From NCBI RefSeq assembly GCF_900113655.1, contig NZ_FOQF01000001.1, forward strand, positions 62,001 to 126,000: a DNA stretch of 64,000 nucleotides, in the 5' to 3' direction. Shown piece after piece: positions 8,367 through 35,025 of this stretch. Each line of letters opens with the position of its first letter. Positions within the stretch are counted from its first letter, which is position 1. Origin of the DNA: Pseudobutyrivibrio sp. OR37 (GTDB lineage: Bacteria > Bacillota > Clostridia > Lachnospirales > Lachnospiraceae). The notes beneath the pieces are model-generated. The model was not told the origin of the DNA and made no database searches. It worked only from the letters and a program-made list of their open reading frames with translations. The translations under genes were made by a program, and so were the position numbers.

Positions 8367-8400
8367 ATTATATAGCGCCATTAGTTACAAACTAGTTACA
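8367..8400 (-). promoter_or_regulatory. TGTAAC direct-repeat promoter block A (FN3 adhesin)
   Basis: TGTAAC repeats lie at 8395-8400 and 8384-8389 (11-bp period), then exactly 11 bases, then TATAAT at 8367-8372. There is no recognisable -35 box. The predicted transcript starts about 45 bases before the 8316 start codon. The same 34-bp layout occurs at four other island promoters. Confidence 0.85.
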
Positions 8401-8409
8401 CTGCTTTAT

Positions 8410-9975
8410 TCATTTCTTTTTTCTAACAACGTTCACATCTACGTAACCTGTTATTCCTGCTATGGTCTCCTTTGAAGAATACTGCCAGTAATCCGCCTTG
8501 CCTGTGTAGTTACATTCTGTATTATACTGGGCTACCCATATATTATATTTCTCAAGACTCTGGGCGTAGACCTTGTCGTAATACCAGTTTTTGCTGGCGT
8601 ATACACCACCTGTGTATCCGCTGTTATTTATTGTTTCACAAAAGGCCTCAAGACACCTGGTTCGTGTGGTTTTATCCAAATCATTTGCCCTGCCATTGAC
8701 TGCGTTTTCTGAATCAATATAGATAGGCAATGAAAGCTGATACCCCTGACACATTTGAAGGGCCATAGATGCTTCCTCTATTGCCTCCTGCTCTGTGATG
8801 GCCTGAGTAAAGAAATACACACCTACCTTAATACCGTTTGCAATAGCCCCTTCTATATTCTTCTTAAAATATGGGTCTTCTACCAGCTGACCATTAACAG
8901 AGCCTCTAAAGCCACATCTGATGATTGCAAAATCCACGCCAGAGGCTGCTACCAGCTGCCAGTCAATATCCTTCTGCCATTTAGAAACGTCGATTCCCAT
9001 TTTTCCTATATTTGCAGTAGATATAACACCATCCTCACCAAAATCATAAGGCAAGCCACCGATAATTTGGTGCCCCAAAACAGGATATGAATCAGGACCG
9101 AAATAATAGGTCCTTCCATCTATTGTCTGCCAGCCAGTGGTCTTGACCTGACCGTAGAAAAAGTCGTGACTGGCATAATCAGATACTAGAGCCGGCTTTT
9201 TTCCTTTCTTATCCAAAAATAGCGGATTTCCTGCTTTATCCATAAGCTGATTATCGCCGTAGGACACGTCCTCCACAAATACATTAAAAATCATTTCCTT
9301 TGTGGCAGTCTTACCAGGAGCAGGCTGATAGGTAACGATTACAGAAACCGGTACCTTTCCAGAAAAGTCATCTCCTATGTACATTAAATCCACGCTGGTT
9401 CCTGTGCTTTCCGATAGCTGCAGTACATCAGGCTTGGTACTGTTCCAACCTATAGATTTAATAATACCTGCCTTATCAACGATAGAAGCCTCGATAGATA
9501 TTTTTGAGGATTTCTCAATTCCTGTGTTATACAAATAAACTTCCTTTGGAACAGATACCTTGGAATCACCTATATCCAAAAATCTATGCTCGTTCAACAC
9601 ATAGCTGTCTGGAAAATCGCTTACCTCCACCTGATCCTTCTGTATCTTTTCTCGTTCTCTATAGATACTAGGTAAAAGTGGCGTAGTATTGATATAGGTA
9701 TTCTCTATTTGAGTCTCATTTATAGCAGAATCTTCCTTATCAACATCCACATCATCCACTGTGAAAACTTCAACCTCTATCTGATGAAAGGCCTCTTCAG
9801 CATCCAGTGGAACTATAGCTGCCTCATCCACCACCTCTTCTGCAGCATTCCTAGAAGCTTTATCTGAACCATCCCCACCATTTTTTACTCTGGCGTAAAT
9901 AATAACCCCAATAAACATAAAAACCATTGCTAAAGACAAAGCAATCGCAATGGTTATCGTTTTCTTGTCCTCCAT
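8410..9975 (-). CDS. Membrane-anchored GH25 lysozyme with glucan-binding-like repeat
   Basis: This peptidoglycan muramidase is probably used to open the wall for pilus passage or to remodel it. The 521-residue protein has a short cytosolic start, one membrane segment (about 5-27) and an acidic linker. Ig-like sequence (about 130-235) follows, then a choline/glucan-binding-like repeat (GWQTIDGRTYYFG). The C-terminal GH25 domain begins at MGIDVSKWQ. The catalytic DxE pair is intact (IYIDSEN). It is the last gene of the run that starts with the sortases, 9 bp after a coiled-coil protein gene. A second GH25 gene lies at the other edge of the island (39007-40593). Confidence 0.9.
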   Translation of the reverse strand: MEDKKTITIAIALSLAMVFMFIGVIIYARVKNGGDGSDKASRNAAEEVVDEAAIVPLDAEEAFHQIEVEVFTVDDVDVDKEDSAINETQIENTYINTTPLLPSIYREREKIQKDQVEVSDFPDSYVLNEHRFLDIGDSKVSVPKEVYLYNTGIEKSSKISIEASIVDKAGIIKSIGWNSTKPDVLQLSESTGTSVDLMYIGDDFSGKVPVSVIVTYQPAPGKTATKEMIFNVFVEDVSYGDNQLMDKAGNPLFLDKKGKKPALVSDYASHDFFYGQVKTTGWQTIDGRTYYFGPDSYPVLGHQIIGGLPYDFGEDGVISTANIGKMGIDVSKWQKDIDWQLVAASGVDFAIIRCGFRGSVNGQLVEDPYFKKNIEGAIANGIKVGVYFFTQAITEQEAIEEASMALQMCQGYQLSLPIYIDSENAVNGRANDLDKTTRTRCLEAFCETINNSGYTGGVYASKNWYYDKVYAQSLEKYNIWVAQYNTECNYTGKADYWQYSSKETIAGITGYVDVNVVRKKK

Positions 9976-9984
9976 ACTTCTCCT

Positions 9985-10683
9985 TTAGAATAGTTTGATT
10001 CCCATTGCTGGCAAAATAGTTACTAGCATTACAAGTATTGATACTACGAAAGAAACAATTGCAAATATCAGAACATTGTTCATTCGTTTCTTAAGAGAAT
10101 TAGATTTGTTATCTATACCAAATAGCGCCTGGTTTTGCTTGGCGTTTTCTTCGATAATAACTGCCTGGACATTTCTATATGTTTTTATAGCCTCTATGTT
10201 GGTTTTTTCCATGATATTTTCATACATGGCTCTAAAATCAACATTAAGACGCTCATCAATTACCTCCTTTAGCGCCTTAACCTCGGCTTCCATAGTGTCA
10301 ATTTTTCTAAACTGACGCATTATTAAATCAAGCTGTTCATCATCCAGCTTGGCAAAATCCACCTTTGTAACCTTTGGCTCAGGATACTGAACCGGTGGCA
10401 AAATAATTGGCTTGAATTCAGGAAACTCAATATCCTCAAATTCAGTTTGCATCCCAAGTGAGCGCTCAATTTCATCAAGCTCCTGCAATAGAGAATCTAT
10501 ATCTCTTTCTATGGTATTCTCTAGTGTTAAGTCCTGATTTATTTCAGAAGCAGACTCTTCATTGGCTTCCTGCTCAGGTTCTGCCTTCTGTTCATCTCGT
10601 TCCATTAAAACCTGGTCAACACTGATGATTTCATCAATGTTGAGATCATCCATGTTTTCATCATCGTCATTAAACAGAATCAT
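9985..10683 (-). CDS. Acidic coiled-coil, tail-anchored membrane protein of unknown function
   Basis: I do not recognise a family. The 232-residue protein starts with a very acidic region rich in Asp and Glu (1-80), followed by a proline-containing segment, a predicted coiled coil (about 110-190), and one C-terminal hydrophobic helix (about 203-228) with almost nothing after it. It has no signal peptide, so it should be a tail-anchored protein facing the cytosol. It overlaps the upstream LytS-type kinase gene by 14 bp and has a good GGAGG site, so it is coupled to the kinase. The protein at 28041-28754 has the same layout and also sits beside a LytS-type kinase, which suggests a shared role in signalling or in positioning the pilus machinery. 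That role is inference. Confidence 0.75.
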   Translation of the reverse strand: MILFNDDDENMDDLNIDEIISVDQVLMERDEQKAEPEQEANEESASEINQDLTLENTIERDIDSLLQELDEIERSLGMQTEFEDIEFPEFKPIILPPVQYPEPKVTKVDFAKLDDEQLDLIMRQFRKIDTMEAEVKALKEVIDERLNVDFRAMYENIMEKTNIEAIKTYRNVQAVIIEENAKQNQALFGIDNKSNSLKKRMNNVLIFAIVSFVVSILVMLVTILPAMGIKLF

Positions 10684-11950
10684 CCTTAACCTCCCCCTTC
10701 ATTATCAAATACGTTACAGTAGTACCTACCCCCTCGGTACTTGCTATAGATATCTTAGACTTGTTTACCTCGTATAAACGTTTTCTAATGTCTTGTATAC
10801 CTGCATTGATAACATCTTCCTCAAGCTCCTTTGCGTTGAAGCCCAAGCCATCATCTTTAACTATAATTTTATAACAATCTGGCATTTCACGCACGTATAT
10901 TTTTATAGTTCCTCCTCCAACCTTTTTAGTAACCCCGTGACGAACAGCATTTTCTACTACTGGCTGAAGGGATAATGGAGGAATTAAAAATTCTTCGTTG
11001 TCTATACTGTATTCGATTTTTAAATCTGCAAACCTTAGCTGCTCCAGCCAAAGATAGGTTCTAGTGTGCTCTAATTCATCTGAGAAAGGAATTAAATCCT
11101 GGTCTGTAATAGTATCCAAATTTCGTCTTAGATACTTTGTAAATTTATCAATGGCGTTTTCTGCCACCTCTGGATTCTTCCTAATCAAATATTTGATGTT
11201 AGTTAGAGAATTAAAAATAAAGTGTGGCTGCAATTCAGAGATGATTAAATCTGTCTGCATAATAGTATCATCCATTTTTTGTTCAACCACATGCTGCTCT
11301 CTAGTTACATGAATAGCTATAAACATAATTATATAGCTGATAGTCATAGCAGAATAAAGCATAGAAAGACACTGGCATTTTAATGCTGGAAACAGCACAA
11401 TAAGTGGGAAAGCAATAAACAGATACAATGCCACACATACATTTGCATCTAGCACTCCCGTCATGTGATTGTAGATTATTCTAAACATGATAAATATAAC
11501 CAGCAGGCAGCCAATCAAGACCACCACAAAGAATAGCTGCTCCTGAGTATATACTCCTTCTTTTGAGATTTTGAAAACATATCCATGAAGCATGGAAGAA
11601 ATCCAAAATAGAATCATAATGACGCAGACAGCAAATGGAATGCTTCTGAATAAAGGCCTTCTGCCTCTTTTTCTGGTGATCAGTTTATCTACATACAGAT
11701 TAAAGCCGGAGATACTTACAAAAGTAAAGGAGCCCTGAAGAATAACGGAAATACGAAGTAAAACCAGATTTGATGAGTCATTTGCGAACACAATCGTACC
11801 CATATCTGCAAGCAAAACAAGGGCGTTCATAAGTAAAAGAATTGGGAAGTATTCATTCATCGCATTTCTCTTACCTAATAAAACGCCCACTAGAATTACA
11901 AACGTAATCAATACCGATAATAAATCCAGTCCTACGCCCATCAATTCCAT
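10670..11950 (-). CDS. LytS/YpdA-type sensor histidine kinase (second of two in the island)
   Basis: This is a membrane sensor kinase. The 426-residue protein has about six N-terminal hydrophobic helices (residues 1-200). The His_kinase domain has its phospho-acceptor in ELQPHFIFNSL (about residue 240). An HATPase region follows with VVENAVRHG and DDGLGFN. No response regulator gene adjoins it. The nearest is the SARP-type regulator at 25887-26705, next to the related kinase at 26683-28017. Cross-talk to that regulator is likely but not shown. It lies 4 bp after the sortase-fusion gene and overlaps the next gene by 14 bp. Confidence 0.9.
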   Translation of the reverse strand: MELMGVGLDLLSVLITFVILVGVLLGKRNAMNEYFPILLLMNALVLLADMGTIVFANDSSNLVLLRISVILQGSFTFVSISGFNLYVDKLITRKRGRRPLFRSIPFAVCVIMILFWISSMLHGYVFKISKEGVYTQEQLFFVVVLIGCLLVIFIMFRIIYNHMTGVLDANVCVALYLFIAFPLIVLFPALKCQCLSMLYSAMTISYIIMFIAIHVTREQHVVEQKMDDTIMQTDLIISELQPHFIFNSLTNIKYLIRKNPEVAENAIDKFTKYLRRNLDTITDQDLIPFSDELEHTRTYLWLEQLRFADLKIEYSIDNEEFLIPPLSLQPVVENAVRHGVTKKVGGGTIKIYVREMPDCYKIIVKDDGLGFNAKELEEDVINAGIQDIRKRLYEVNKSKISIASTEGVGTTVTYLIMKGEVKDDSV

Positions 11951-11954
11951 AGCC

Positions 11955-14900
11955 TTACCTCTTCAGATCTAAGCGTACAGTAATTCTCTTTTCTCCCGAA
12001 TAGCTACATGTAAATAAGGTCAAATCCCACTGTCCAGATAGCATCTCATCTATCTGGTCCGGATTAAGATTTTCTATAAGTGTGCTTTCATATTCATACA
12101 CAGTGCCATCTAAGGTTGTAAGCTTTGCAGTAATCACTTCGTCTTTACCAAGTAAATTGAAATCTCCAAACTGGCTGTCATAATTATGGCCTACAATTAC
12201 AAGATTTCCATTTTCTCTTGAGCCATTATAAACACAAGGTGTGGTTTTCATATCAGCATCTGTGTAGGTGGCAAGTACAGGAAGCTTTATTCCAAATCTG
12301 TCTATTTCTATAACACCTATATACTCTCTACCATCTGCAGGAACCATTGCCTTTTCTGGCTGAGGCTCCTCTACTACCTTGAAGGTAGAGGTATCACCCA
12401 CTGAAGTTACCTCTGCCACACTTTCCTCTGTTACCTCTTCATTGTCACCTAAATTTGAATTATCAGTAACCTCTGCCATGCTGGCTATAATTTCATTGTT
12501 GGTTCTTATTCGCTGAATATCGTTATAAACATGAACTGCCCCAAAGCACATACCGCCCACCAGACAGGTCACTGACATAACAGTAATGTATCTTACTATT
12601 TCCTTTCTATCATCCTTGGCTGCCCAAAGAGCTCTGAAAATAAATCCTATTAATCCAACAAATAAAAGCACATATTCCAATCTGAAAACACCTGCCTCTG
12701 GAAGTAAGGCGCTGCCTCTACTCCACTTAATTGTATTTGAGCCGTAATCATATACCATAAAATATGCTGCAGAGGTATCCATGTAAAAGGCACTTAAATC
12801 CATATCATTGCTGCCTGCTGCAACAAGACTGTTATAGTAATCTGTTCCAAGTGCACCAACTGCTGCATCCAAATCGATTTCCTCGGCAGCCATTGTCACA
12901 CCAATTAAAAAGCTTTCCGTCTTAATGAGAGGGCCTTCCACTAAAACAATTGCGCCCTCATCCATATAAAGATTTCTGTTGATACGTGCAGTATCTATTC
13001 CACCATCAGCATTGGCAGTCTCGCTATAGCTTACATTGTTGTGAAGGATGATATTTCCATTTACCTTAAGAGTTGCACCACTTCTAAGATAAGCTCCTGC
13101 TCCAGGGTCTGAGGCTGTAGCTCCAAGAAGAGCCACGTTTCCTACAAGACTAGTGCCCACCTCAGAGGAACCTATAAGTGATAAAGCAGCCCCATCATCG
13201 ACTGTAATCATAGAGCTTACAGCCACCTGGTCTTCTGCAATAAATCCGTTTAAAGAGCAATCGCTAAGAATAAGCTCTCCTCCACCAACTGCAAACATAG
13301 TGCCATCAAAGATTACATCAGCACCACCTCTGGTGAAATTGATGTTGTTTACCTGTACCACAGGACTATAGCCATTTGAATTTGAGGACATGGTATAGGT
13401 CTGTGATATTGCCACGTTTGTAATTGCAGGGTCGTTAATAGAAACGATTGCCTTTGCACCATCGTTGTTTCTACTCATATTTGTTGCAGCCTCGAAGGCT
13501 TCAGCAAAGGTTGAATAGTAAAATTCACTTTCACCTAAAAGCTGTAAGGTTACCTTAAACAACGCATTAGATAAGCCGTAGCCTCTTACCTCATAGCCAC
13601 TGATGGATACTGACATTTCTGCAAGAATCATCTTTTCAGGGCAAACCAGTGTGCCAGCATTTTCGCTGTTAAATAAGTCCTCATATACAAAGAAGCCACC
13701 ATTAACTGTAAGCTTTGAGTCTGTGTCGGCTATATTTCCAGATGAATTAATTAGATAAGCATTGTAAACATCAATATCTGCAAAGCCTGAGCATATTGTT
13801 CCGCTTGAGATATTGTAATAGCCTGATTCAAACTTGATATAATCAGTACCTGCGAAAAGCTTGCCACTTGTACCAGATATACCACCTGGACGATAGTTAT
13901 CCCCACTATAGTTTATTTCTGTTGCAGTGCTGTCCTTTAGGGTAACTCTGCTGCTGGCAAAATCTATATATGCTCCTGAATCCAAGGAGATTTTATGACC
14001 CTTCATATCAATAACAAAGGTGCAATTATTTACAACTGTCATGGAAGACGCGATACTTAATTCATCCTTAATTTCAATTACAGGGATGAAATTGGAATCT
14101 CCGTCATTATGTACCTCATCTGCTACAGCTCTTGCACCGTTTAAGGCCTCTTCAAGGGTAAGGAATTCTGCCTCCTTTGACTCGCCACCTACTGAATAAG
14201 CAATAATAGCAGCATAATCCTCTTCTTTGCCGATACATTCTGCATAATCCTTGGCACATACAGGGCAGTTTAAATCTACCTTTCCCTCTTTACATTTTTT
14301 CTCACAGATACATACCTCTTCAAAAGCGCACTGAGTATAGTCCTTTGCACAAACAGGGCAGGTGCTGTCTACGTCCTCCTCGCTGCAATGTGTCTTGCAG
14401 GTACATTCATCCTTATCTAAAATTGCGCAGTCCTCAAAATTCTTTTTGCAAACTGGACATTCTTCATTAAATTCAGCAGAGGTACAGTGAGTTTCACATA
14501 TACACTTTTTCTCTTCATCATCCTTATTTTCTGTTTCCTCTGTGCCTTCCCCTTCTTTTTCGCCTTCTTCTCCTTCGGTACCAGTGCCAGTACCTTCGCC
14601 TTCTTGTGTAGTGCCACTTCCATCTGAAGCAGTACCACTACCTTCAGCATCACTTTCGCCACCTTCTGTACCTGTGCCGCCAGCACCACCCTCACCCGTG
14701 GTAACAGCTCCATCTGAACCTGCAGCTGTAGTGTCTCCTATAGCGGTATTACCACCCTCACCTGTGGAAGCATCAGCTTCTCCAGCTTGATTTTCAGGTA
14801 CATTATCACCGCCTTCAGCGTCTTGGACAGGGGCGTCCTCTGTAAAAGTAATTCCTTCTTCTGACTGAACCTCAGCCTCGTTCTGTGGTAATTCACCTTC

Positions 14901-15014
14901 ATCTGCAAAGGTACGAACAGTAATAACATTGGAAACTGCAAACAAAAGTAGCATAGAGCCTGTAATACCTATCAATATGTAGTTCATGTATTTTTTCCAG
15001 ACTCTCTTTAACAT
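11955..15014 (-). CDS. Surface protein fused to a C-terminal sortase domain (unusual fusion)
   Basis: This single 1019-residue reading frame combines a surface protein with a sortase. Residues 14-32 are a hydrophobic export/anchor segment. Residues 40-170 are a Gly/Glu/Thr-rich linker. Residues 171-260 hold three repeats of about 31 residues with six Cys each (CxCxxxC, then CPVC, then C). Residues 265-765 look like a beta-solenoid. At 771-775 an LPEAG motif is followed by a hydrophobic helix and KDDRK, like a cell-wall sorting signal. After a second membrane helix and an acidic linker comes a sortase fold with IVGHNYDS (His943) and TLFTCSYS (Cys1003), plus Arg1010 or Arg1014. The catalytic triad appears complete. 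It starts 2 bp after the class-C sortase gene, so the two are coupled. What it anchors, possibly itself, is unknown. Confidence 0.88.
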   Translation of the reverse strand: MLKRVWKKYMNYILIGITGSMLLLFAVSNVITVRTFADEGELPQNEAEVQSEEGITFTEDAPVQDAEGGDNVPENQAGEADASTGEGGNTAIGDTTAAGSDGAVTTGEGGAGGTGTEGGESDAEGSGTASDGSGTTQEGEGTGTGTEGEEGEKEGEGTEETENKDDEEKKCICETHCTSAEFNEECPVCKKNFEDCAILDKDECTCKTHCSEEDVDSTCPVCAKDYTQCAFEEVCICEKKCKEGKVDLNCPVCAKDYAECIGKEEDYAAIIAYSVGGESKEAEFLTLEEALNGARAVADEVHNDGDSNFIPVIEIKDELSIASSMTVVNNCTFVIDMKGHKISLDSGAYIDFASSRVTLKDSTATEINYSGDNYRPGGISGTSGKLFAGTDYIKFESGYYNISSGTICSGFADIDVYNAYLINSSGNIADTDSKLTVNGGFFVYEDLFNSENAGTLVCPEKMILAEMSVSISGYEVRGYGLSNALFKVTLQLLGESEFYYSTFAEAFEAATNMSRNNDGAKAIVSINDPAITNVAISQTYTMSSNSNGYSPVVQVNNINFTRGGADVIFDGTMFAVGGGELILSDCSLNGFIAEDQVAVSSMITVDDGAALSLIGSSEVGTSLVGNVALLGATASDPGAGAYLRSGATLKVNGNIILHNNVSYSETANADGGIDTARINRNLYMDEGAIVLVEGPLIKTESFLIGVTMAAEEIDLDAAVGALGTDYYNSLVAAGSNDMDLSAFYMDTSAAYFMVYDYGSNTIKWSRGSALLPEAGVFRLEYVLLFVGLIGFIFRALWAAKDDRKEIVRYITVMSVTCLVGGMCFGAVHVYNDIQRIRTNNEIIASMAEVTDNSNLGDNEEVTEESVAEVTSVGDTSTFKVVEEPQPEKAMVPADGREYIGVIEIDRFGIKLPVLATYTDADMKTTPCVYNGSRENGNLVIVGHNYDSQFGDFNLLGKDEVITAKLTTLDGTVYEYESTLIENLNPDQIDEMLSGQWDLTLFTCSYSGEKRITVRLDLKR

Positions 15015-15016
15015 GG

Positions 15017-16336
15017 CTACTTTCCTTTCTTGGATTTCTCTACAATATCCTCTCCAATATTAATCTCCTGCTTGAAGTATGGATTCAAATCCTCTGGTGG
15101 AGGCTCTGGCCTTCCTCTTTCCATTACATCTGGAATATCGGCAAAAAACAGGTTGAATTTATTTTTCACACGGTCAAAGACTGACCAGTCCTGATCAACC
15201 TTTTCAAGTACTTTATCGTCCCAAAGTCTACGCTTTGCATCTTCCTCGCCGTAGTCTACGGACTCATCATAGAAATCGAATTCGTCCCAAGGTCTTTCCT
15301 CATCATCCTCTGTAAGCTTATTTTCATGCATTAATGTGTCATCCCAACGTCTTTGCTTTGCCAGTCTGTCTGCCTCTACAGTAACGTTTTCTGTCTCCCA
15401 ATTTGCTCTTGTAGACATTTCTGAAACCTTAATTGCAGCCTTATAAACCTCTTCAATATTGTCATCCCAAGGTCTTAAATAAAGCTTTGGCTTTACCACC
15501 GGTGGGAATATAAGAATTGGCAAGCCAACAAATAGGAAGATGGAACCCATTGTAACTGCTATTACATTTACAATCTGTTCTCTGGTCATACCGTATTTCT
15601 TAGTGTCTGTATGCTCTAGTACTTCTTCAGCTTCATCCTGCTGTATTCTCACTCCTCTAATCATAAGACGATGAGTGTTTTCACCGTATGGAGTACAGGT
15701 AACAAGCGTTACGTAATCCATCTCCGGGTCAATAGCAAGTGGAGACATATCGTTTGGTAGTACTGTAACAATCTGATCTACCTGATAAAAATGCTCCTCG
15801 CCTAAAACAATAATAGAAAATACATCTCCAACCTCTACTCTATCAAGATTTGTAAAAAGTACTGCACTTGGAAGACCTCTGTGTCCTGAAAGACCGCAGT
15901 GAGTACCTTTACCACCGATAGGAAGTGAGGTTCCTTCGATATGACCTACATACTTCTGTAAAACATCCTCTGTTGTTCCGTGATAAACAGGAAGATTTAA
16001 GCCAAGCTTATCAATCTTTAGGTAACACATCATTCCAGTCCCGTCTACATTCAAGGTGTCCTTGTAAACCTGGAGCATTTCATCTGTCATATCTGCGAAA
16101 CGACCTACAGGATTTGACTGAAGCTCTGTGTTGTAGCTTTCTGTCTCTTCAAAGAAAGCCTTTCTAGTCTCTTCATTCATCTGAGCAACAGTTTCATCAT
16201 ACTCGCTGATGGATTTAGAGCTGTTCCTTTGATTGAAGAAATCAGAAATATTAGGGTACAAAAGAATACCTAGTCCTACAACGAAGACTAGTACTAAAAG
16301 CAAATTCATATAATTGAATTTCCTTCCTGCGCCCAT
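15017..16336 (-). CDS. Class C-like (pilin-polymerising) sortase with long cytoplasmic tail
   Basis: This transpeptidase probably links pilin subunits. I place the start at the ATG at 16336 (MGAGRKF), 5 bases after GAGGGA; a TTG 12 bases upstream is a weaker choice. The 439-residue protein has an N-terminal membrane helix (about 8-27), then a sortase domain with SGHRGLP (catalytic His) and TLVTCTPYGENTHR (Cys and Arg). A second membrane helix (about 250-275) follows, as in class C enzymes. Unusually, about 155 residues follow on the cytosolic side. They are very charged and carry four R-x-W-D-(D/E) motifs (encoded near 15217-15475). No lid motif was identified with confidence. Confidence 0.9.
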   Translation of the reverse strand: MGAGRKFNYMNLLLVLVFVVGLGILLYPNISDFFNQRNSSKSISEYDETVAQMNEETRKAFFEETESYNTELQSNPVGRFADMTDEMLQVYKDTLNVDGTGMMCYLKIDKLGLNLPVYHGTTEDVLQKYVGHIEGTSLPIGGKGTHCGLSGHRGLPSAVLFTNLDRVEVGDVFSIIVLGEEHFYQVDQIVTVLPNDMSPLAIDPEMDYVTLVTCTPYGENTHRLMIRGVRIQQDEAEEVLEHTDTKKYGMTREQIVNVIAVTMGSIFLFVGLPILIFPPVVKPKLYLRPWDDNIEEVYKAAIKVSEMSTRANWETENVTVEADRLAKQRRWDDTLMHENKLTEDDEERPWDEFDFYDESVDYGEEDAKRRLWDDKVLEKVDQDWSVFDRVKNKFNLFFADIPDVMERGRPEPPPEDLNPYFKQEINIGEDIVEKSKKGK

Positions 16337-16383
16337 AGTGTCCCTCAATACTTCTGCAAAAAAGCATTTCCTAATATTTAAAA

Positions 16384-16417
16384 ATAGGCAGAAGACAGAT
16401 ACCTGCCTCCTGCCTAT
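16384..16417 (-). terminator. Hairpin terminator after the double-pilin gene
   Basis: Arms 16384-16391 and 16410-16417 pair perfectly over 8 bp. On the minus strand the hairpin is followed by an A/T-rich stretch with UUUUU. It lies just past the stop of the double-pilin gene and before the sortase genes, so sortase expression may depend on read-through. Confidence 0.65.
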
Positions 16418-21680: not shown

Positions 21681-21714
21681 ATAATAAACCGTTACTAGTT
21701 ACAAACTAGTTACA
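21681..21714 (-). promoter_or_regulatory. TGTAAC direct-repeat promoter block B (double pilin)
   Basis: TGTAAC repeats lie at 21709-21714 and 21698-21703 (11-bp period), then 11 bases, then TATTAT at 21681-21686. An extra GTAAC half site lies at 21691-21695. There is no -35 box. The 5' leader would be about 70 bases. Confidence 0.85.
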
Positions 21715-25852: not shown

Positions 25853-25886
25853 ATTGTAATCTACAGGGTGTTACAAACTCGTTACA
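25853..25886 (-). promoter_or_regulatory. TGTAAC direct-repeat promoter block C (fibre protein and LPATG pilin)
   Basis: TGTAAC repeats lie at 25881-25886 and 25870-25875 (11-bp period), then 11 bases, then TACAAT at 25853-25858. The block directly abuts the stop codon of the response regulator gene at 25887, so the regulator gene is followed at once by one of its presumed targets. Confidence 0.85.
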
Positions 25887-26705: not shown

Positions 26706-28017
26706 TCTTTTTCCTCTTTGGTACATGCACAATGGCACGACAGCCCTGACCTGGCTGCGAAATAACCTCCAAGCTACCCTTTATCATGAATTTTAATCTA
26801 CTATCGGTGTTTTTTAGTCCTACGTGATTCTTGCCATCGCTCTTTAATTCCTCAGAATCAAAGCCGATTCCATTATCCGCAACCTCTACCAGGAACTCAT
26901 CATTATTTTCATATACGTGAATGCTTACCTTTCCACCTTCAAGCTTTCTAGCCACACCATGTCTTACGGAATTTTCCACCAGTGACTCTACAGAAAGAGG
27001 TGGAACGGAAAAGCCTGTAGCTTCAACGTTTATGTCCACCTGCAGCCTATCCTCATACCTTAGCTTTTGCATATACACGTAATGATTTATAATCTCCATC
27101 TCCTCTGTAATCGGAATACATACATCCAAATCATAAGCATCAATGTAAGATCTTAAAAAAGAAGATAAATGACTGACAGCTTTAGCTGCCTCCTCCGGAT
27201 TTTGCTTGCATAAAAACTGAATTACATTTAAGTTGTTATAAATAAAATGAGGCTGAATCTGAGTCCATAACATTGTGTTCTTGAACTCGTTATTAATACG
27301 CTCCTTTTCCATGATTTCCTCAGCCTGCTTTAGCATTCTCTGATTCTTTTCAATCTCGTAAAACATGTACATCATAACAAGAGCGATGCTGATAGCTATA
27401 TTTATAACTGAAGACACCTGTCCTGTTATAACCATGAAAATGGCACTACCTACAGGAAAGGATAAATATACCATCAATGACACTCTCTGGAGTCTACTAA
27501 AAAACGATCTATGGTAAAACACAATGGCTAATATTAACACGAAGCAGGAGAACACTGGCACCAGTGCAAGATAATAAACATCACCTCTATGATATACATT
27601 GTTCTCGTCAAAATAATAAATTACGTGCTTAAACTGATCAAAAATCAGCGCCAAAATAGAAAAGCACATTATAAAATATGCGATGTAAATAAAGATAGGA
27701 TTGAATCTACCGCCATTGTTTGTAACTATAGCCCGAAGAAATGCTATAAAATATATTTCCAGCAAATACAGAGTAAAATACAATATAAAATTAGACAGCC
27801 TAAGAATAGTAAGACTTATTGCCCCAGGCTCCCCGTTATAGGTAACAGCAAAAATATCGCAAGCCAAAATAACCGCATTAAGCAATAGCATATTTCCAAG
27901 CTGTACATTTTCTCTTTGTTCAACTCTTTTTCCTCTGTCAGTGGAAAAGGCGGCAACTAAACAAAAGATTGCCCCCCATATTTCCAATGCAGCTACTCCC
28001 ATAGCTCCTTGTGGCAC
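26683..28017 (-). CDS. LytS/YpdA-type sensor histidine kinase (partner of the SARP-type regulator)
   Basis: This is a 444-residue membrane kinase. About six to seven hydrophobic helices lie within residues 1-215. The phospho-acceptor region is QIQPHFIYNNLN (about 253) and the HATPase region has LVENSVRHG, DNGIGFD and HVGLKN. The start is a GTG at 28017, 6 bases after AGAGGAG; the ATG five codons later is too close to a ribosome site. The gene lies between the charged-repeat protein gene (23 bp upstream) and the regulator gene (23-bp overlap), so all three are one unit. No ligand-binding domain is recognisable; the membrane helices may sense the signal. Confidence 0.92.
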   Translation of the reverse strand: MPQGAMGVAALEIWGAIFCLVAAFSTDRGKRVEQRENVQLGNMLLLNAVILACDIFAVTYNGEPGAISLTILRLSNFILYFTLYLLEIYFIAFLRAIVTNNGGRFNPIFIYIAYFIMCFSILALIFDQFKHVIYYFDENNVYHRGDVYYLALVPVFSCFVLILAIVFYHRSFFSRLQRVSLMVYLSFPVGSAIFMVITGQVSSVINIAISIALVMMYMFYEIEKNQRMLKQAEEIMEKERINNEFKNTMLWTQIQPHFIYNNLNVIQFLCKQNPEEAAKAVSHLSSFLRSYIDAYDLDVCIPITEEMEIINHYVYMQKLRYEDRLQVDINVEATGFSVPPLSVESLVENSVRHGVARKLEGGKVSIHVYENNDEFLVEVADNGIGFDSEELKSDGKNHVGLKNTDSRLKFMIKGSLEVISQPGQGCRAIVHVPKRKKNEVSSGG

Positions 28018-28040: not shown

Positions 28041-28754
28041 TTAATGTGTATTGAGCAGTGTAAGTATAAAGAAACACATAAGGGCTAGTAACACTACTAT
28101 TCCAATAGAATTTGCAATTAAAAACGTGTTATTGGTTGCAATCTTCTGCAAAACATCCCCGATAGTCTTAGAGCCAAACTTCTCGGCCAAGGTTTCCTTC
28201 ATTCCCTCTGTGGCAGCTTCCATTTGCTCCTTCATTGGATCTGAATAATCCAGATTGCTCTGTAAGGTTTTTAATCTCTCTTCTATGGCATCACACTTAG
28301 CCTCCACTGGTAAATTCAATTCGTCCAAATCATCTCTAAGTGTAGCTTGAATCTTTTTTATGTTTGCGCCCATGCCTTCATCCATGCCATCTAGTTTTTC
28401 TGACATGCTAGCAATAGTCTTTGTAATGTTGGCTAGAAGCTCCTGATTAGATTTATCTGCCTGTCTAATCATTGTCTTTAAGTCTGCATTTTCCTGGCGT
28501 CTGCTGTCTAATGCATCCTTTAAGGCATAGACCTCTCTTCTTAAGCGCTCCACTTCCTCTCTAATCTGGTTGTCATCATTATAATCTTCATATCTATCGT
28601 CTCTACGATAATCTTCACGCCTGTCATCTCTATGATAATCGTCATGCCTATCGTCTCTACGATAATCCTCCCGTCTGTCGTCCCGCCTGTCATCCCTTCT
28701 ATCATCTCTTCTGTCGTCTCTTCTATTATCTCTATCTCTTCTATCGTCGTACAT
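28041..28754 (-). CDS. Arg/Asp-repeat, coiled-coil, tail-anchored membrane protein
   Basis: No family is recognised. The start is chosen at 28754 (MYDDRRDRD), 7 bases after GGGGGT. The 237-residue product begins with about 60 residues built almost only from R, D, Y, H and E in RRDD/RxDD repeats. A coiled coil follows (about 65-200). One C-terminal hydrophobic helix (about 212-234) ends the protein, so it is tail-anchored with the charged part in the cytosol. It leads the kinase-regulator operon. A second tail-anchored coiled-coil protein (9985-10683) accompanies the other LytS-type kinase. A scaffold or kinase-modulator role is possible but unproven. The repeated DNA (28565-28750) is prone to slippage. 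Confidence 0.8.
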   Translation of the reverse strand: MYDDRRDRDNRRDDRRDDRRDDRRDDRREDYRRDDRHDDYHRDDRREDYRRDDRYEDYNDDNQIREEVERLRREVYALKDALDSRRQENADLKTMIRQADKSNQELLANITKTIASMSEKLDGMDEGMGANIKKIQATLRDDLDELNLPVEAKCDAIEERLKTLQSNLDYSDPMKEQMEAATEGMKETLAEKFGSKTIGDVLQKIATNNTFLIANSIGIVVLLALMCFFILTLLNTH

Positions 28755-28815
28755 TTTATTTACCCCCTGGCTATACATTGGCAATAAAACTCATTTGCTA
28801 GACTACGTTTATTAA

Positions 28816-28824
28816 ATATTAGCA
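28816..28824 (-). promoter_or_regulatory. Possible extended -10 promoter for the regulator operon
   Basis: TGC followed by TAATAT lies about 60 bases before the 28754 start codon. No good -35 box and no TGTAAC repeats were found here, so the regulator operon is not obviously under its own control. Confidence 0.4.
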
Positions 28825-28873
28825 TGATTTTTTGGCGATTTTGTTTATCAAATGTGAATTTTTTTGCACAAAT

Positions 28874-28902
28874 AAGGCCTTCCCGATGTTCGGGAAGACC
28901 TT
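28874..28902 (-). terminator. Hairpin terminator after the 28915-31134 pilin gene
   Basis: A GC-rich stem (AAGG.CTTCCCGA against TCGGGAAG.CCTT) has a 3-base loop and begins about 12 bases after the pilin stop codon. A modest U-rich tail follows on the minus strand. Confidence 0.75.
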
Positions 28903-28914
28903 CAAATAACTATT

Positions 28915-31134
28915 TTACATATATGAGCTTGGGTCTAAATTACGCTGCCTTAGGATTAAAAGTAGTAATGAGGATGACATGATAACCATTCCAAGGATTG
29001 TGAAAATAAGAATACCAATGCCTCCTGTGCTTGGGAGTGTAAGTCCTCTGTAGTTGAGCACCTTAAGCACTGCAATACCATTTTCAATTAACTGCTTGTT
29101 TGAATCATAGCTATCAAAGAAACCACATAAGCTTCCGTTAAACTCAAGCTGTGCTGTTTCATCATCGATTCGACTAATGGTAAATAAAATATCCTCTGCT
29201 AATGAGTTGTAGCCACTAGGAGCCTTTGTCTCCATAAGGATATAGTTTCCAGCATCAAGTCCTTTTACAAGGATACCTGTATCTGAAGCTACAGATGTAA
29301 GACTACCCTCAAATGGTGTCTCTTCATTAATGGCACCTGCTGTATATTTTACAAATACTCTTGCAACCACTGCATTTTTCTCATAAGCCACACCACTTGT
29401 TGTTACTCCTGCATCTTCCATGGTTTGTGTATATACGTAATAATTACTTTCAGGACCTTTACTATTAATATCCTCTTCAATTTCCTCAAAGGAAAGCTCT
29501 AAGGTGTCGGCAGCACTTCCATTCATATCTGCCTGCCAGATAAACTGCTTGTTGTCCTCAATATAAGTATTCACTTCCTTGTATAGATTAAACTGGGCGC
29601 CTGCTAAAGCTTCCTGGCTGTTTCCATCCAGCTTGATGAGCTGCATACCATAAGTATAAGCTCTTACTGTATCTGAAATACCTGATGTTCCTTCGTATAC
29701 AATTGTTGCTGTGTTATAGTTTCCTTCTGAATTGACCTCTATCTTATCAGTAACAATGGCCTTGTAGGACAATGTTACAATTGCAGTATCATAGGTTCTA
29801 CCATCTGTGTCATCCTTAATCATCTGCTTTAACACACCAACATTAATGTTAAGCTTGATATAGGTGCATTCTACGCCATCAGCATTTTCCTTGGTTCTAA
29901 TTTCGTCTAGTGTGTAGACTGGTGCTGATTTTTTAATTGCATAATAGCTGTGGCCTGCTTCATAACCATCCAGTAAAGCAAGTGAAGTGCAATTAGTTGT
30001 GTAATCACTAATATTTCCATCTGTAAGCTCATAGTAATCTTCTCCTTCCGTTAATCCTGTTTTATCATAGGTTTCATCTGCTATTTCATAGTAATCAAAA
30101 GGTATTGTTGGAAAGTCCTCTTTAACGGATCCTTCCATAGAACCTGTAGTTGTAAAGCTAACATCTAATTCGTTGGATACCCCATCATTATTTGCATCGT
30201 AGATGGTAAAGGCTGGGCTCATGTAATCCTCGATGTACATTGAATATGCCTGGTCCATTGCTCTTGTGTAGGTTACTCTATCCTTGTAAAGAGTTGGTAA
30301 AGTAATATCTACATCGAAATCTACAACCTCGCCTATTCTTACATCATCTGCCTGCTTACCATTTATTTTCTTATCGATGGTGGCATCTGCTGATTTAAGC
30401 TCGGCAAAATAAACTGAATCTACGTAATAATTTCCCTCTGGTCCATTAATCTTTGGTGTTAAATCCTTTACCACTGGGGTAAATCTCTTAGCATCTGCTG
30501 TAACCATAACAGCATAGATACCAAGCTCAAGATCAGAAAATGTAACTTCCAGATTTTCTACATCCTCTACTGTTACACTATCCTTATAAGGTGTTAATTT
30601 GCCCTGGTAAACTGTATTTTCATCTTCCACACTAGAAGAAGAACCATACTCGATAACATTGAGTGGTCCACTTGAATCTCTGTTATAAAGTAAGTATTTA
30701 TAAAACTCTGTCCAGGTAGACTGGCTGGCAGATGCAAGATTCTTAGGTGATGCATAGGCTGTTTTAATAGTTCCATTTGAAGAATAATTATCGTATGCCT
30801 GCAGCCAATCAGAAACCTGTGTTACCCAATAAGGATCAGAATATTTTTTTGTAACTGTGTCGTAATTTACTGAAGCTATTTTATAAATAGTAACCTTCTC
30901 TCCTACTGAGGTTGTCTTTACTACTAAAGAGGTTGTAGCATTTTCGCTATCTACCTTAATGTTTGATGCAGCAGCTGTTCCAGAGGTATTTTCTCTGTTA
31001 TTTAAAGAATCCACATCAAAATCTGCTGCCAGGGAATTAATTGCCATAGCAGGCAAAAGTGACATCATTAGCAGAAATACAAATATGAGACTGAGAAGTC
31101 TTTTTTTCATTGTTTTAGTATTTACCTTCTTCAT
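28915..31134 (-). CDS. LPXTG pilin with isopeptide and Cna-B domains
   Basis: The start is taken at 31134 (MKKVNTKTMKK) because GGAAGGTGA lies 6 bases upstream; an in-frame ATG five codons earlier lies in that site. The 739-residue protein has a signal peptide (about 1-37) and an N-terminal pilin domain that starts with DVDSLNNREN, like the other pilins. It has an isopeptide-type domain (TIDKKINGKQ) and a Cna-B domain (GMQLIKLDGNS to LMETKAPSGYN with E-box). The sorting signal is LPSTGG, a hydrophobic helix and LRQRN, ending SSYM. It lacks the extra lectin or FN3 head of its larger relatives, so it could be another shaft or base pilin. It forms a single-gene transcript between promoter block D and a hairpin at 28874. 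Confidence 0.9.
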   Translation of the reverse strand: MKKVNTKTMKKRLLSLIFVFLLMMSLLPAMAINSLAADFDVDSLNNRENTSGTAAASNIKVDSENATTSLVVKTTSVGEKVTIYKIASVNYDTVTKKYSDPYWVTQVSDWLQAYDNYSSNGTIKTAYASPKNLASASQSTWTEFYKYLLYNRDSSGPLNVIEYGSSSSVEDENTVYQGKLTPYKDSVTVEDVENLEVTFSDLELGIYAVMVTADAKRFTPVVKDLTPKINGPEGNYYVDSVYFAELKSADATIDKKINGKQADDVRIGEVVDFDVDITLPTLYKDRVTYTRAMDQAYSMYIEDYMSPAFTIYDANNDGVSNELDVSFTTTGSMEGSVKEDFPTIPFDYYEIADETYDKTGLTEGEDYYELTDGNISDYTTNCTSLALLDGYEAGHSYYAIKKSAPVYTLDEIRTKENADGVECTYIKLNINVGVLKQMIKDDTDGRTYDTAIVTLSYKAIVTDKIEVNSEGNYNTATIVYEGTSGISDTVRAYTYGMQLIKLDGNSQEALAGAQFNLYKEVNTYIEDNKQFIWQADMNGSAADTLELSFEEIEEDINSKGPESNYYVYTQTMEDAGVTTSGVAYEKNAVVARVFVKYTAGAINEETPFEGSLTSVASDTGILVKGLDAGNYILMETKAPSGYNSLAEDILFTISRIDDETAQLEFNGSLCGFFDSYDSNKQLIENGIAVLKVLNYRGLTLPSTGGIGILIFTILGMVIMSSSLLLLILRQRNLDPSSYM

Positions 31135-31185
31135 AATGTCACCTTCCATCTCTACAAAACAGGACTGTATCCTTATGATGGTTAC

Positions 31186-31219
31186 ATTTTACCCCCACCC
31201 ATGTTACAAAGCTGTTACA
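31186..31219 (-). promoter_or_regulatory. TGTAAC direct-repeat promoter block D (28915-31134 pilin)
   Basis: TGTAAC repeats lie at 31214-31219 and 31203-31208 (11-bp period), then 11 bases, then TAAAAT at 31186-31191. A further TGTAAC-like copy at 31181-31186 lies two turns downstream and overlaps the -10 box. The spacer between repeats (AGCTT) differs most from the consensus TAGTT. Confidence 0.82.
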
Positions 31220-31243
31220 CATGAATTTGTAATTTTTTGTAAT

Positions 31244-31276
31244 AAAAAAACACCCGAAGGTCAATGCCTTCGGGTG
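31244..31276 (-). terminator. Strong intrinsic terminator after the lectin adhesin gene
   Basis: A perfect 10-bp GC-rich stem (31251-31260 with 31267-31276) and a 6-base loop are followed on the minus strand by seven U. It lies 12 bases past the 31289 stop. Confidence 0.92.
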
Positions 31277-31288
31277 TAGGTTACTAAT

Positions 31289-34200
31289 TTAGAAGTTATC
31301 TTCCATTCGTCTTCTGTTTAACATAATCAGGATTACTGTACCCATCAGTACTGTACCAATGATTACGAATAACAGGATACCAATTCCACCAGTACTTGGA
31401 AGTGTAAGTCCCTGGTAGTTGTATACATCAATGGAGATGCACGCATTCTGGTTGATTACTGCTGTTTCTGGATTAGTAGCATCATAATCATCTGACATTT
31501 CTCTGAACCATACCAAAGATTTGTCTGTAGTCTTTAGCTGCTCTTCATCCTCTGTAAGTCTATTAATTTCGAAGTAAATATCTTCTGCTAATTCGTTGTA
31601 TCCACTAGGTGCCTTAGTCTCTACTAAGATATATTTGCCATCTGCAAGACCGTGAGCTGTAATACCTTTGTCATTGCCCACAGATACCAATGTATCAAAT
31701 TCACCAGTGCTTCCCTGTGTGAATACTCCGTTGTCCATTACAACCTTCTTGAAGTATCTATCAGAGGCATCTCCTTCTCCTGGAAGTACATAATAATTCT
31801 CATGATCAGCCTCGATTACTTCTATTTCTTCTGGACTTAAGTTGCCAAGAACTTCCTTGTAAAGCTTGAACTGTGCACCTGCAAGGTATGCTCTTTCGCT
31901 GGCACTACCATCAATCTTGATGATATTTAAGCCATAGGTGTATGCATAAACTGCGTCATGCATTTCTGTCATTGAACCACCAGAAGAATCCTTCTCATAG
32001 TATACGTATGCAATATTGCTGTTTGCATTAGTATTAATCTTTGCATCTGCGTCAAGATATGCATAGTATACAAGTCTAAAGCCAAGTGGCTCTCTTTGCT
32101 CTGTTGTCTTTAAGTTATACTTCCAAGCTCTAAGTGCTGGCTCATCAAAATCAATTCTAATCTTAAGAGAGCCATCCTCTTGATTTTCAACTATGAAATC
32201 ATTAAAGATTCTTACGTTTTCTCTTCTATTATAGTAATTGCCTACCAAATCAGAATTCTTTGTAATAATGTTTGTGTAATCAATCTGGTCGCCAGCCTTA
32301 TCCATTGTAAGTCCGTTAGAACCTGACACTGGAGATGCTGTAAACTTGTATGGGCTACTTGTAGGAATACCATTCTGAGTAATAAGCTCTGGCTTCATCT
32401 CTCCCTCATCCTCATACAAGTAGTATAGCTTAAGATCATGGTCACCACCTTCTAATAAAGTGAAGCCGTTAGCCATAATATCCTCGAAGTACAGCTGATA
32501 GCCGCTACCTTCACCTGAAGTAAGTCTATCCTTGTATTCAGGAAGCTGGAAGTCAATTCTAAATTCGATTGGATCATCTGTATTGTTGATTTCGGCAATA
32601 TCTTCCTTGGCATCATTAATATACTTGTCAATTGTAGGTTCAACTTCCTTGATGTATACAGTAAACATATCCTGTACAAAGAAGTTGCCCTGTGGACCAG
32701 ACTGCTGTGGATATACAGCTGCAACTGTAACTGCATAGCTACTTGAACCAGCCTTTGCCAATATTGCATAAATACCATAGTTGATATTATCAAACTTAAC
32801 AGCGTATCTTGTTGCGCCATCAGCGCTTGATGCAACCTCTGCACCTTCTGCATCCACGTAAACGTCAGCCATTGAGTTGTATTGGCTAGGTGAATTATTA
32901 ACTACCAAATCTTGTAACAAACCTGTGGCATTTCCTTCAGAATCTACAATTACACCGCCTTTATTCTGAAGCATATCCTTGTAAAAGGCTGAAATAGTAC
33001 TTGAAGATGCCTTTCCATTTGCCAGGTCGTAAGGCGTTGCAGCCGATTTTGAATAACCAGAAGTACTAATCCATTCCTGCACCTCTGGTACCCAGGCAAT
33101 CTTGTTCAAGGTATTCTCAGAATCGTTCCATGGCATCTCAGCAATCTTGTACATTGAAAGGGTATCTGAAGATGTTGCAAGAACAACCTGTAAATCAGAA
33201 TATGCTGTACTTGATGTTACCTTACGCTGATAGGGAACCTCTTCCTTTGAATACTGCTTATTATTTAATGAATCCACTGCATAATCTGCATCTGGATCAT
33301 AAATCTTAAATGTAGATACAGCCTTTGCTGTTACTGTATTTGATGCAAGCTTCGTATTCTTAACACTTACATCTACCTCTGCATAATAATATCCAATATC
33401 TGTTGGAGGGCCAGCTAATTGCTGTCCACCACTATAAATACCTGCTCCATCAACCTTAAAATATTTAATTGGAGAAATTGTTGTATTTGCTGCACCTGCT
33501 GCAGACTTAATGGCAATATCGCCATCTATGGTTGCACTATTATAAACCTTTCCATCATAAGGCACATCAGCGGTCTTAATATTCATATCAATAGTTACAC
33601 CAAGTGTAGATTCGTTTGTTGCGAAATATGAACACTTAGGGTCAGCTGCTGAACAGAACATCTTAATTGTATCTGAACCTGCTGGAGAATATAAATTCCA
33701 AATGTGACTTAGAGGCTGAGTTGTTGTCTTAAATTCAAAGTTAGTCTTTGCCTTCTGGCCTGCTTCTGTTAATCCTGTTACAGCATCACCATATTCTACG
33801 AAGAAACCTGTAGATGTATAATCTGTAACACTTGAAGAACCATATTGAGCCATGTTAGTAGAGCTAATATCATTCCATGAATAACCGGATGCCTTATAAT
33901 ATGGTGATGAAGAATTAATCTTTCCACTTCTGGCACCGGTAGACCAACCTGTACCAATCTTAAGTGTTGTCATAGCAAACTCAACGTTAGAGTTGTTTGG
34001 CTCACCACTATTCCAGTTGTTATACATTCCATTGCTGTCGGCTGTTCTCATAAGAGCGTCTGTACCCTTAACAGCATTTAAGAACTTACCACCATTAACA
34101 TTGACATCAGGACCACATGACCAATACCAGTAACCAATAGCATTATCCGATGCTCCTGATGGTTCAGTAAATGTCTTGTAATAAGGAATACCATTCTTTG

Positions 34201-34918
34201 TATCAGATGCACCATGATTCATTCTGGTACCACCCATCCAACCGATTTCGTTAGATGTCTGATAAATGAAGAAATCTTCCTGTATACTAGATACTGTTAC
34301 AAGATAGCCCTGCAAACCTTCATACTGCATATCAAGTGCTGTGTAATATGAATATTCCCAAGAACCATATTGCCATGTCTTTCCTGTTCCATCAGCTTTA
34401 CCTGCTGCGCCACCAAGCTTATGATCAAACTTGATAAACTGATAATAATGGCCTGTATCTTCTGAATAGAAGGTCATGTATCTAACTATATCTCTACCAA
34501 TAGAGAAGTTAATTTTCTGAGAAGAGTTTTGGCAATTTAAAAATTTAATTTTTCTAATATAAGCAGCAATATCAACCAGATTCTTACCTTCTGGGATATT
34601 GATAACATAAGTACCATCTGTACTAAGCTTTGTCTCGTAAGTAAAGCCTGCCATATTAGTAGGAAGAACAGCCTTCTCACCATTAGTTCTTACAGAAGTA
34701 AAGTTAATAACAATACTTTTGTAAAGATTAGCGCCAGTACCCAGACAGTTACTATAGGTCATTGTTCCTGATACAGCATCATAGGAAGGCTGACCTACAT
34801 CAATCTTATCTGCTACTGCAGCATAGGTTGGAACTGATGGCACTACCATAGCTGCCACCATCAAGATTGTTACCAATAATGATAAAAATCTCTGTTTGAA
34901 TGTTTTTCCTTTTGCCAT
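31289..34918 (-). CDS. LPXTG pilin-type adhesin with C-type lectin-like domain
   Basis: This is a probable pilus tip adhesin that binds sugars. I choose the start at 34918 (MAKGKTFKQR), 6 bases after GGAGG. An earlier ATG at 34993 lies inside the promoter -10 box and cannot be used. The 1209-residue protein has a signal peptide (1-33), a beta domain, then a C-type lectin-like domain at about 147-380. That domain carries the calcium and sugar motifs WNSGEPNN (E306-P307-N308) and WND (348-350). An MBG-like module (IGYYYAEVDV), an isopeptide-type domain (TIDKYINDAK) and a Cna-B domain (GLNIIKIDG to LVETKAPSGYN) follow. The sorting signal is LPSTGG, a helix and NRRRMEDNF. EPN in C-type lectins usually means mannose-type specificity; applying this here is inference. 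Confidence 0.92.
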   Translation of the reverse strand: MAKGKTFKQRFLSLLVTILMVAAMVVPSVPTYAAVADKIDVGQPSYDAVSGTMTYSNCLGTGANLYKSIVINFTSVRTNGEKAVLPTNMAGFTYETKLSTDGTYVINIPEGKNLVDIAAYIRKIKFLNCQNSSQKINFSIGRDIVRYMTFYSEDTGHYYQFIKFDHKLGGAAGKADGTGKTWQYGSWEYSYYTALDMQYEGLQGYLVTVSSIQEDFFIYQTSNEIGWMGGTRMNHGASDTKNGIPYYKTFTEPSGASDNAIGYWYWSCGPDVNVNGGKFLNAVKGTDALMRTADSNGMYNNWNSGEPNNSNVEFAMTTLKIGTGWSTGARSGKINSSSPYYKASGYSWNDISSTNMAQYGSSSVTDYTSTGFFVEYGDAVTGLTEAGQKAKTNFEFKTTTQPLSHIWNLYSPAGSDTIKMFCSAADPKCSYFATNESTLGVTIDMNIKTADVPYDGKVYNSATIDGDIAIKSAAGAANTTISPIKYFKVDGAGIYSGGQQLAGPPTDIGYYYAEVDVSVKNTKLASNTVTAKAVSTFKIYDPDADYAVDSLNNKQYSKEEVPYQRKVTSSTAYSDLQVVLATSSDTLSMYKIAEMPWNDSENTLNKIAWVPEVQEWISTSGYSKSAATPYDLANGKASSSTISAFYKDMLQNKGGVIVDSEGNATGLLQDLVVNNSPSQYNSMADVYVDAEGAEVASSADGATRYAVKFDNINYGIYAILAKAGSSSYAVTVAAVYPQQSGPQGNFFVQDMFTVYIKEVEPTIDKYINDAKEDIAEINNTDDPIEFRIDFQLPEYKDRLTSGEGSGYQLYFEDIMANGFTLLEGGDHDLKLYYLYEDEGEMKPELITQNGIPTSSPYKFTASPVSGSNGLTMDKAGDQIDYTNIITKNSDLVGNYYNRRENVRIFNDFIVENQEDGSLKIRIDFDEPALRAWKYNLKTTEQREPLGFRLVYYAYLDADAKINTNANSNIAYVYYEKDSSGGSMTEMHDAVYAYTYGLNIIKIDGSASERAYLAGAQFKLYKEVLGNLSPEEIEVIEADHENYYVLPGEGDASDRYFKKVVMDNGVFTQGSTGEFDTLVSVGNDKGITAHGLADGKYILVETKAPSGYNELAEDIYFEINRLTEDEEQLKTTDKSLVWFREMSDDYDATNPETAVINQNACISIDVYNYQGLTLPSTGGIGILLFVIIGTVLMGTVILIMLNRRRMEDNF

Positions 34919-34991
34919 AAAAAACCTCCAATCACTTCTCTCTAGTATTAAACACGTAAATGTATTAACCCACTTTGGATTCTGTAATGCC

Positions 34992-35025
34992 ATTCTATAA
35001 TCCCCCCTGTTACAAACTAGTTACA
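34992..35025 (-). promoter_or_regulatory. TGTAAC direct-repeat promoter block E (lectin adhesin)
   Basis: TGTAAC repeats lie at 35020-35025 and 35009-35014 (11-bp period), then 11 bases, then TAGAAT at 34992-34997. The predicted leader is about 67 bases, ending at the 34918 start codon. Confidence 0.85.

Follow-up and report, generated by a model that had tools for sequence, protein, structure and literature searches.

A direct-repeat promoter pattern ahead of five apparent transcription units in a Pseudobutyrivibrio pilus island, and its probable receiver-SARP regulator

The stretch of DNA analysed here, called the window, comprises 64,000 nucleotides of the rumen bacterium Pseudobutyrivibrio sp. 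OR37 (contig NZ_FOQF01000001.1, positions 62,001 to 126,000) and carries a pilus island whose genes all lie on the minus strand. Five blocks of 34 bp, on the same strand, have the sequence TGTAAC-N5-TGTAAC-N11-TANNAT: block A at 8367-8400 (ending in TATAAT), block B at 21681-21714 (TATTAT), block C at 25853-25886 (TACAAT), block D at 31186-31219 (TAAAAT) and block E at 34992-35025 (TAGAAT). All five are exact matches to the pattern; blocks A to D are also backed by cross-species alignment, and block E has an orthologous site in the 6 genomes compared. Every apparent unit of the island, including that of the response regulator P0001 (25887-26738), has such a block ahead of it, and the blocks are interpreted below as putative operator-promoters of units A to E bound by this one regulator.

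The units, which presumably correspond to real transcripts, are described here in the direction of transcription. Unit E contains gene E (31289-34918), encoding a secreted surface protein of the 1200-aa class with a SpaA domain and an LPSTG motif, whose ATG is preceded by a ribosome site; the start at 34993 in the open reading frame list overlaps the -10 box and is false, the real one lying about 73 nt past the -10. A terminator-like hairpin with 11 pairs and a T run (31250-31277), detected in the hairpin scan, separates units E and D. Unit D comprises gene D, for a pilin-like protein with SpaA and LPSTG (28915-31134), a coiled-coil protein with a C-terminal transmembrane stretch (28041-28784), a sensor histidine kinase with PF06580 and HATPase domains (26683-28017) and P0001 itself, which combines a receiver, a SARP/OmpR-type winged helix and a short helical tail. 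Block C lies directly behind the stop codon of the regulator and is followed by gene C (23679-25817), for an N-terminally membrane-anchored coiled-coil protein without a sorting signal, and by the gene of an LPATG surface protein (21753-23666). Unit B is the longest list: gene B, for a 1724-aa surface protein with SpaA and LPSTG (16430-21604), a class C (pilus) sortase (15017-16348), a large protein with a C-terminal sortase domain (11955-15014), a second sensor kinase of the same PF06580 type with no regulator of its own adjoining (10670-11950), an acidic coiled-coil/transmembrane protein behind that kinase (9985-10683) and finally a lysozyme-type family 25 glycoside hydrolase (8410-9975). 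Unit A carries gene A (4903-8316), a surface protein with SpaA, fn3 and LPSTG.

An initial annotation of the window had located these blocks, and its coordinates, geometry and -10 hexamers were confirmed for all five, as was the lack of a -35 box: at a spacing of 15-19 nt, the hexamer most similar to TTGACA agrees with it at 1-2 of 6 positions. Its further statement that each block stands 25-70 bases before a surface-protein gene needs correction on both counts. Four blocks precede genes of LPXTG proteins, whereas block C precedes the membrane-anchored product of gene C, with the LPATG protein coming next; and the distances from the end of the -10 to the ATG, behind a ribosome-site-like purine stretch, are 50, 76, 35, 51 and 73 nt for blocks A to E.

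Further terminator-like hairpins lie at 35103-35067, 16417-16384 and 4861-4814. The number of terminator-like matches was only slightly above that in shuffles (14 vs 10.8 and 13 vs 8.5), without a clear excess, and therefore only individual hairpins are mentioned. The strong hairpin at 16384-16417 stands between the genes of the 1724-aa surface protein and the sortase, and could set the pilin-to-sortase ratio. The island has two PF06580 kinases and one regulator, and each kinase is near a coiled-coil membrane protein; comparison of these two coiled-coil proteins gave no similarity. In another genus, a relative of the second kinase (35%; L118:10822-12093) is the next long gene past a TGTAAC site that trails a regulator.

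In the genome of 3,558,369 bases the pattern has exactly five exact matches, every one inside the window, and read backwards as a control it has none. The chance expectation in the window is 0.00, and five matches were reached in 0 of 100 shuffles. A chance origin of the blocks is ruled out by these shuffles together with the reversed control. When two mismatches and TANNNT were allowed, 18 extra matches appeared in the genome vs 8 for the reversed control; 7 of them are exact TGTGAC-N5-TGTGAC sites, which are taken up below, and the other 11 are scattered and near background. In a scan of viral contigs, 42 contigs had a single match each and none had two, which looks like background. The repeat period is 11 bp, and the -10 lies 11 nt from the hexamer, or 9 nt from a 9-bp core; if the -10 is assumed to begin at -12, the 22-bp box is centred at -29.5. 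An extended -10 was considered as a substitute for the -35 and ruled out, TGN being absent from all five blocks, although it is present at several sites of other regulators. In the standard sigma-70 scan, promoter-like matches were not above shuffles (31 vs 53.6 and 56 vs 62.4).

The sites are inherited together with the regulator. Exact sites, 31 in total, were found in 7 of 29 Pseudobutyrivibrio genomes, and the same seven carry the regulator at 73-100% identity (e.g., 88% in P. ruminis AD2017 and 80% in P. xylanivorans DSM 14809), while the next best match in the genus reaches 42%. Sites and regulator are thus jointly present in 7 genomes and jointly absent from 22 (Fisher 6e-7). Among 99 relatives the pattern occurred in one further genome, of another genus; it has two sites, of which one lies some 2 kb downstream from a regulator with 36% identity. 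In the wider family, 13 of 397 genomes contain the exact TGTAAC pattern, with 20 matches vs 1 in the reversed control, and a regulator of the P0001 family (E<=1e-30) is present in 8 of these 13 vs 98 of the 384 others.

To assess constraint, 27 sites were aligned according to their orthologous units; of the 31, three from genome G023 and one from G026 were omitted. Identity was 1.00 for the hexamers, 0.94 for N5, 0.65 for N11 and 0.79 for the two free bases of the -10, and 0.59 and 0.57 for the upstream and downstream flanks. The N11 varies in sequence and is constant in length between species. No degenerate island site at spacer 11 was found in an island scan with two mismatches and spacers of 10-12. 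A full-length relative of gene A occurs in the island stretches of two genomes with five sites (G008 and G010) and not in those of two with four (G009 and G022). As a separate observation, the word TTACA, which is a half-site read in the opposite orientation, is found repeatedly in several genomes at a distance of 10-40 bp upstream from the box of blocks D and E.

P0001 matches the Pfam families Response_reg (E 8.5e-21) and, weakly, Trans_reg_C (E 0.0011), the latter being found in 21 of 31 members of its family at E<=1. Of known structures, OmpR/PhoB regulators are nearest to the full-length model (pLDDT 79.6), with full-length fold matches to DrrB, PrrA, CosR and VanR. The C-terminal model (residues 148-283, pLDDT 83.5, pTM 0.80) is closest to EmbR and AfsR: four SARP chains align to the whole of it, helical tail included (Z 12.0-13.3, 131-135 aligned), among them EmbR (Z 13.3, 133 aligned, 2.6 A) and AfsR (Z 12.9, 131 aligned, 2.8 A), whereas the alignment with OmpR-type domains stops at about residue 94 (Z 10.3 and below). 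The Pfam bacterial transcriptional activator domain gave no match in P0001 and none among the 25 of 32 families listed for 31 relatives, but the four SARP chains also cover the helical tail of the model; at most a short version of the domain, of about 40 residues, can be present. LytTR regulators are the usual partners of PF06580 kinases, and the LytTR DNA-binding domain is absent from the Pfam matches of P0001 up to E 5. The model has three helices behind the winged helix, and we refer to P0001 as a short-tailed receiver-SARP regulator. The initial annotation had assigned the 11-bp direct repeats by the -10 to the OmpR/SARP-like type and the whole island to one dedicated regulon; the SARP-type DNA-binding domain of the regulator agrees with the former, and the latter is favoured by the genome-wide scan, with five matches in the island and none at unrelated genes, and by the co-occurrence of sites and regulator in 7 of 7 genus genomes with joint absence in 22 of 22.

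The same arrangement recurs around related regulators. P0001-type regulators (E<=1e-30) are present in 106 of the 397 family genomes, and the DNA around 115 listed regulator places was taken, the weaker tail of the list being omitted. Any pair of identical hexamers before TANNAT was counted, so that the letters were not chosen beforehand. Counts peaked at period 11, with 35, 38 and 34 at spacers 9-11, compared with 25, 23 and 19 at period 12, 18, 14 and 19 at period 9, and 9, 6 and 8 at period 10; they were generally raised at periods that are multiples of three. A site was called adjacent when a period-11 repeat with a -10 and at least 7 of 9 matches lay between -30 and +150 from the stop codon of the regulator. 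Such sites adjoin 29 of 116 regulator genes, usually in letters other than TGTAAC, vs 16 of 1043 control ends of further genes in these loci (Fisher 6e-20), and at 9 of 9 matches there are 8 regulator genes vs 0 controls. At the level of 7 of 9, the periods from 7 to 16 other than 11 yielded 0-5 adjacent sites. The excess at period 11 therefore points to the frame as a property of the P0001 family.

Based on the sequence evidence, we put the probability at roughly 0.86 that blocks A to E are operator-promoters bound by P0001, each a one-regulator site of the SARP/PhoB type. Two copies of the SARP/OmpR-type winged helix would bind next to each other, one per TGTAAC half-site and offset by one helical turn, and the bound pair would stand in for the absent -35 box and keep RNA polymerase at the -10 in the manner of AfsR at the afs box. 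The box centre at -29.5 is that of the afs box, which is also 22 bp long (PMC10936776), and for this reason the same class of activation is inferred, with phosphorylation of the receiver as the likely driver. The neighbouring kinase (26683-28017) would phosphorylate P0001, and the second kinase (10670-11950) may perhaps also donate phosphate to it. Since kinase and regulator are both downstream of block D, a self-reinforcing loop is probable, and this feedback could switch the whole pilus on together.

Several results weigh against this interpretation. The Trans_reg_C score of P0001 is below the Pfam cut-off (19.5 vs 26.2 bits). The hexamer identity of 1.00 is partly a selection effect, the sites having first been found by the exact pattern. 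Of the 13 genomes of the wider family with the exact TGTAAC pattern, 5 are without a P0001-family regulator at E<=1e-30, and therefore other proteins may use these letters there or the matches may have arisen by chance. Moreover, 87 of the 116 related regulators are without an adjacent site at the threshold used.

The sites could possibly belong instead to a WalR/VicR-type or another chromosomal OmpR-family regulator that controls the island incidentally. TGTAAC-N5-TGTAAC fits the published WalR consensus TGTWAH-N5-TGTWAH exactly (PMC4168254). The initial claim that the motif is undescribed is therefore narrowed. WalR also regulates cell-wall genes, unit B terminates in a lysozyme-type hydrolase, and YycF/VicR domains appear in the fold search of the C-terminal model of P0001. 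However, the half-site letters in the island are strict, the W and H variation of WalR being absent, and the sites are found only together with the island and its regulator. In addition, in each of the 19 genus genomes searched, the best match to the WalK profile covered the kinase core only (beginning at profile position 356 or beyond), while the profile was matched from position 1-3 in 9 of 11 genomes of other families; this negative covers 19 of the 29 genus genomes, and WalR itself was not searched for. Because full-length WalK is lacking in these 19 genomes and the sites track the island, WalR is an unlikely binder, and we give this explanation only a slender chance.

Binding by P0001 could also be of the opposite sign, with the regulator as a repressor at the blocks, or the sites could serve a combination of two regulators. 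The box overlaps the region bound by RNA polymerase, direct repeats near the -10 can repress, and the island has two kinases. However, a repressor is unnecessary at promoters of which all five have no -35, and the position of the box is that of an activator, AfsR; we regard this alternative as very improbable. Copying of a single ancestral promoter, conserved through descent and not through a common regulator, is barely credible as the origin of the blocks: there is some relatedness among the surface genes (SpaA, LPSTG; 31-36% between gene A and genes D and E), but outside the common elements, namely the perfect hexamers and an N5 with a mean pairwise identity of 0.70, the five promoters are unrelated (0.30 over 40 bp upstream, 0.27 in the N11 and 0.35 over 60 bp downstream) and therefore not recent copies, and the N11 never varies in length, also between species.

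Apart from the proposed P0001 regulon of the island, the frame occurs with other letters. Half-sites found with other regulators include TGTTGC, TGTAGC, TGTGGC, TGTCAC, TGTTGGAC, TTGCAAC, TGTTGTCC, TGTAAGG and more. The genome of OR37 encodes a second regulator of the family, with 27% identity, and three TGTGAC-N5-TGTGAC-N11-TANNNT sites lie in its neighbourhood. Genome-wide there are 7 exact TGTGAC sites (C61:873, 5867 and 6951; C75:44478 and 46254; C39:14185; C37:1518; loci L085 and L218-L224) and 4 with one mismatch, against 0 in the control, and the neighbourhood encodes SpoIIE-type phosphatases, an HATPase_c_2 protein and lipoprotein-like proteins. These sites are a candidate second regulon of the same geometry. 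Three TGTAAT direct-repeat promoters within one 20-kb stretch around a family regulator (L133:8320, 11603 and 15971) are a candidate for a further private regulon.

The letters appear to follow the recognition helix in part. In a Mantel analysis of 36 regulator-site pairs (29 from the adjacency rule and 7 added by hand), helix similarity predicted half-site similarity after correction for the receiver (partial r 0.25, reached in 2 of 5000 permutations). Receiver similarity keeps r 0.21 after helix correction, and part of the signal is therefore common ancestry. When 31 regulators are aligned, the effector domain varies most, if the linker is disregarded, in helix 3 and the wing (mean pairwise identity 0.26 and 0.21), compared with 0.53 for the first strands and helix and 0.48 for the tail. 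For example, residue 213 is Ala, Ala, Met and Val in four TGTAAC regulators and Arg, Arg and Lys in three TGTGAC regulators. Five helix classes are each associated with their own half-site (Fisher 3e-5 to 1e-3), in post hoc tests of classes noticed in the same data, and the expected site is missing at 16 of 34 helix-positive loci. At two loci of genome G030 (L072 and L083), the half-site by each regulator resembles that expected for the helix of the other, a hint of cross-regulation between paralogues.

The genes regulated by the P0001 family are, as far as their position behind frame sites indicates, not always those of pili. The first genes behind 10 of 30 such sites were scanned and include a flagellin, a surface beta-galactosidase, repeat-rich and Ig-like surface proteins and two GGDEF proteins; one had a weak match only and one had no match. 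The flagellin gene at L194:110-1927 stands directly behind a TTGCAAC direct-repeat promoter that trails a P0001-family regulator.

The frame itself appears constant: a half-site, an 11-bp period and a gap of about 9 nt before the -10, in many cases immediately behind the regulator gene. We lean towards the view that there is a widespread family of clostridial receiver-SARP regulators in which this invariant promoter frame is combined with a diversifying helix and wing, giving private alphabets readable from the helix and insulated regulons; a general code of this kind is probable. If the proposed control by P0001 is correct, a complete pilus would be under one switch with an operator recognisable by eye, and sequence could be used to predict pilus regulons in those clostridia of the rumen and gut that are difficult to work with genetically or otherwise. 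If the family-wide reading is correct too, dozens of related regulators with a fixed frame and different letters would be natural variants for testing the long-standing question of how OmpR-type recognition helices select their DNA letters, and hence a natural data set for their recognition code. Many insulated regulons would then exist within one genome, and mutually insulated promoters could be used as tools.

As for known systems, the enterobacterial PhoP box also places hexamer-N5-hexamer upstream of the -10; its letters are TGTTTA and its regulon is unrelated to the pilus island. The pho box of E. coli PhoB has the consensus CTGTCATA-W-A-W-CTGTCACA, an 11-bp direct repeat starting with TGT (PMC4168254), and the PhoB domain overlays P0001 at Z 9.7; its letters are different, and PhoB is without the extra helical tail. 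WalR/VicR (YycF) sites include the letters of the island sites, but according to the same source they vary in letters, strand and distance to the promoter, whereas the island sites are fixed in letters and distance. In the available portions of the literature, no description was found of the motif in Pseudobutyrivibrio or of receiver-SARP regulons in clostridia. The actinomycete SARPs (AfsR with the afs box, and EmbR) are alike in their 11-bp direct repeats by the -10, the box centre, a weak or missing -35 and an OmpR-type DNA-binding domain with helices packed on it. It was reported that SARPs recognise direct repeats with a spacing of 11 or 22 bp, of which the 3' one stands 8 bp from the -10, that two SARP protomers bound side by side hold sigma region 4 and the core enzyme, and that the winged helix of AfsR is followed by seven helices, of which numbers one to three pack on it (PMC10936776). 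The geometry of the blocks is thus the published SARP rule, which further limits the novelty claimed initially. In contrast to these SARPs, P0001 has its DNA-binding domain fused to a phosphoryl-receiver, has approximately the first three of the seven helices behind the winged helix, and belongs to a clostridial host with pilus genes as putative targets and other half-site letters. What is new on the sequence level is the combination of a clostridial receiver-SARP regulator, a whole pilus island apparently under one exact operator and a frame that stays fixed across the family as its letters change; the proposed mechanism belongs to a known type, and its regulator is unusual.

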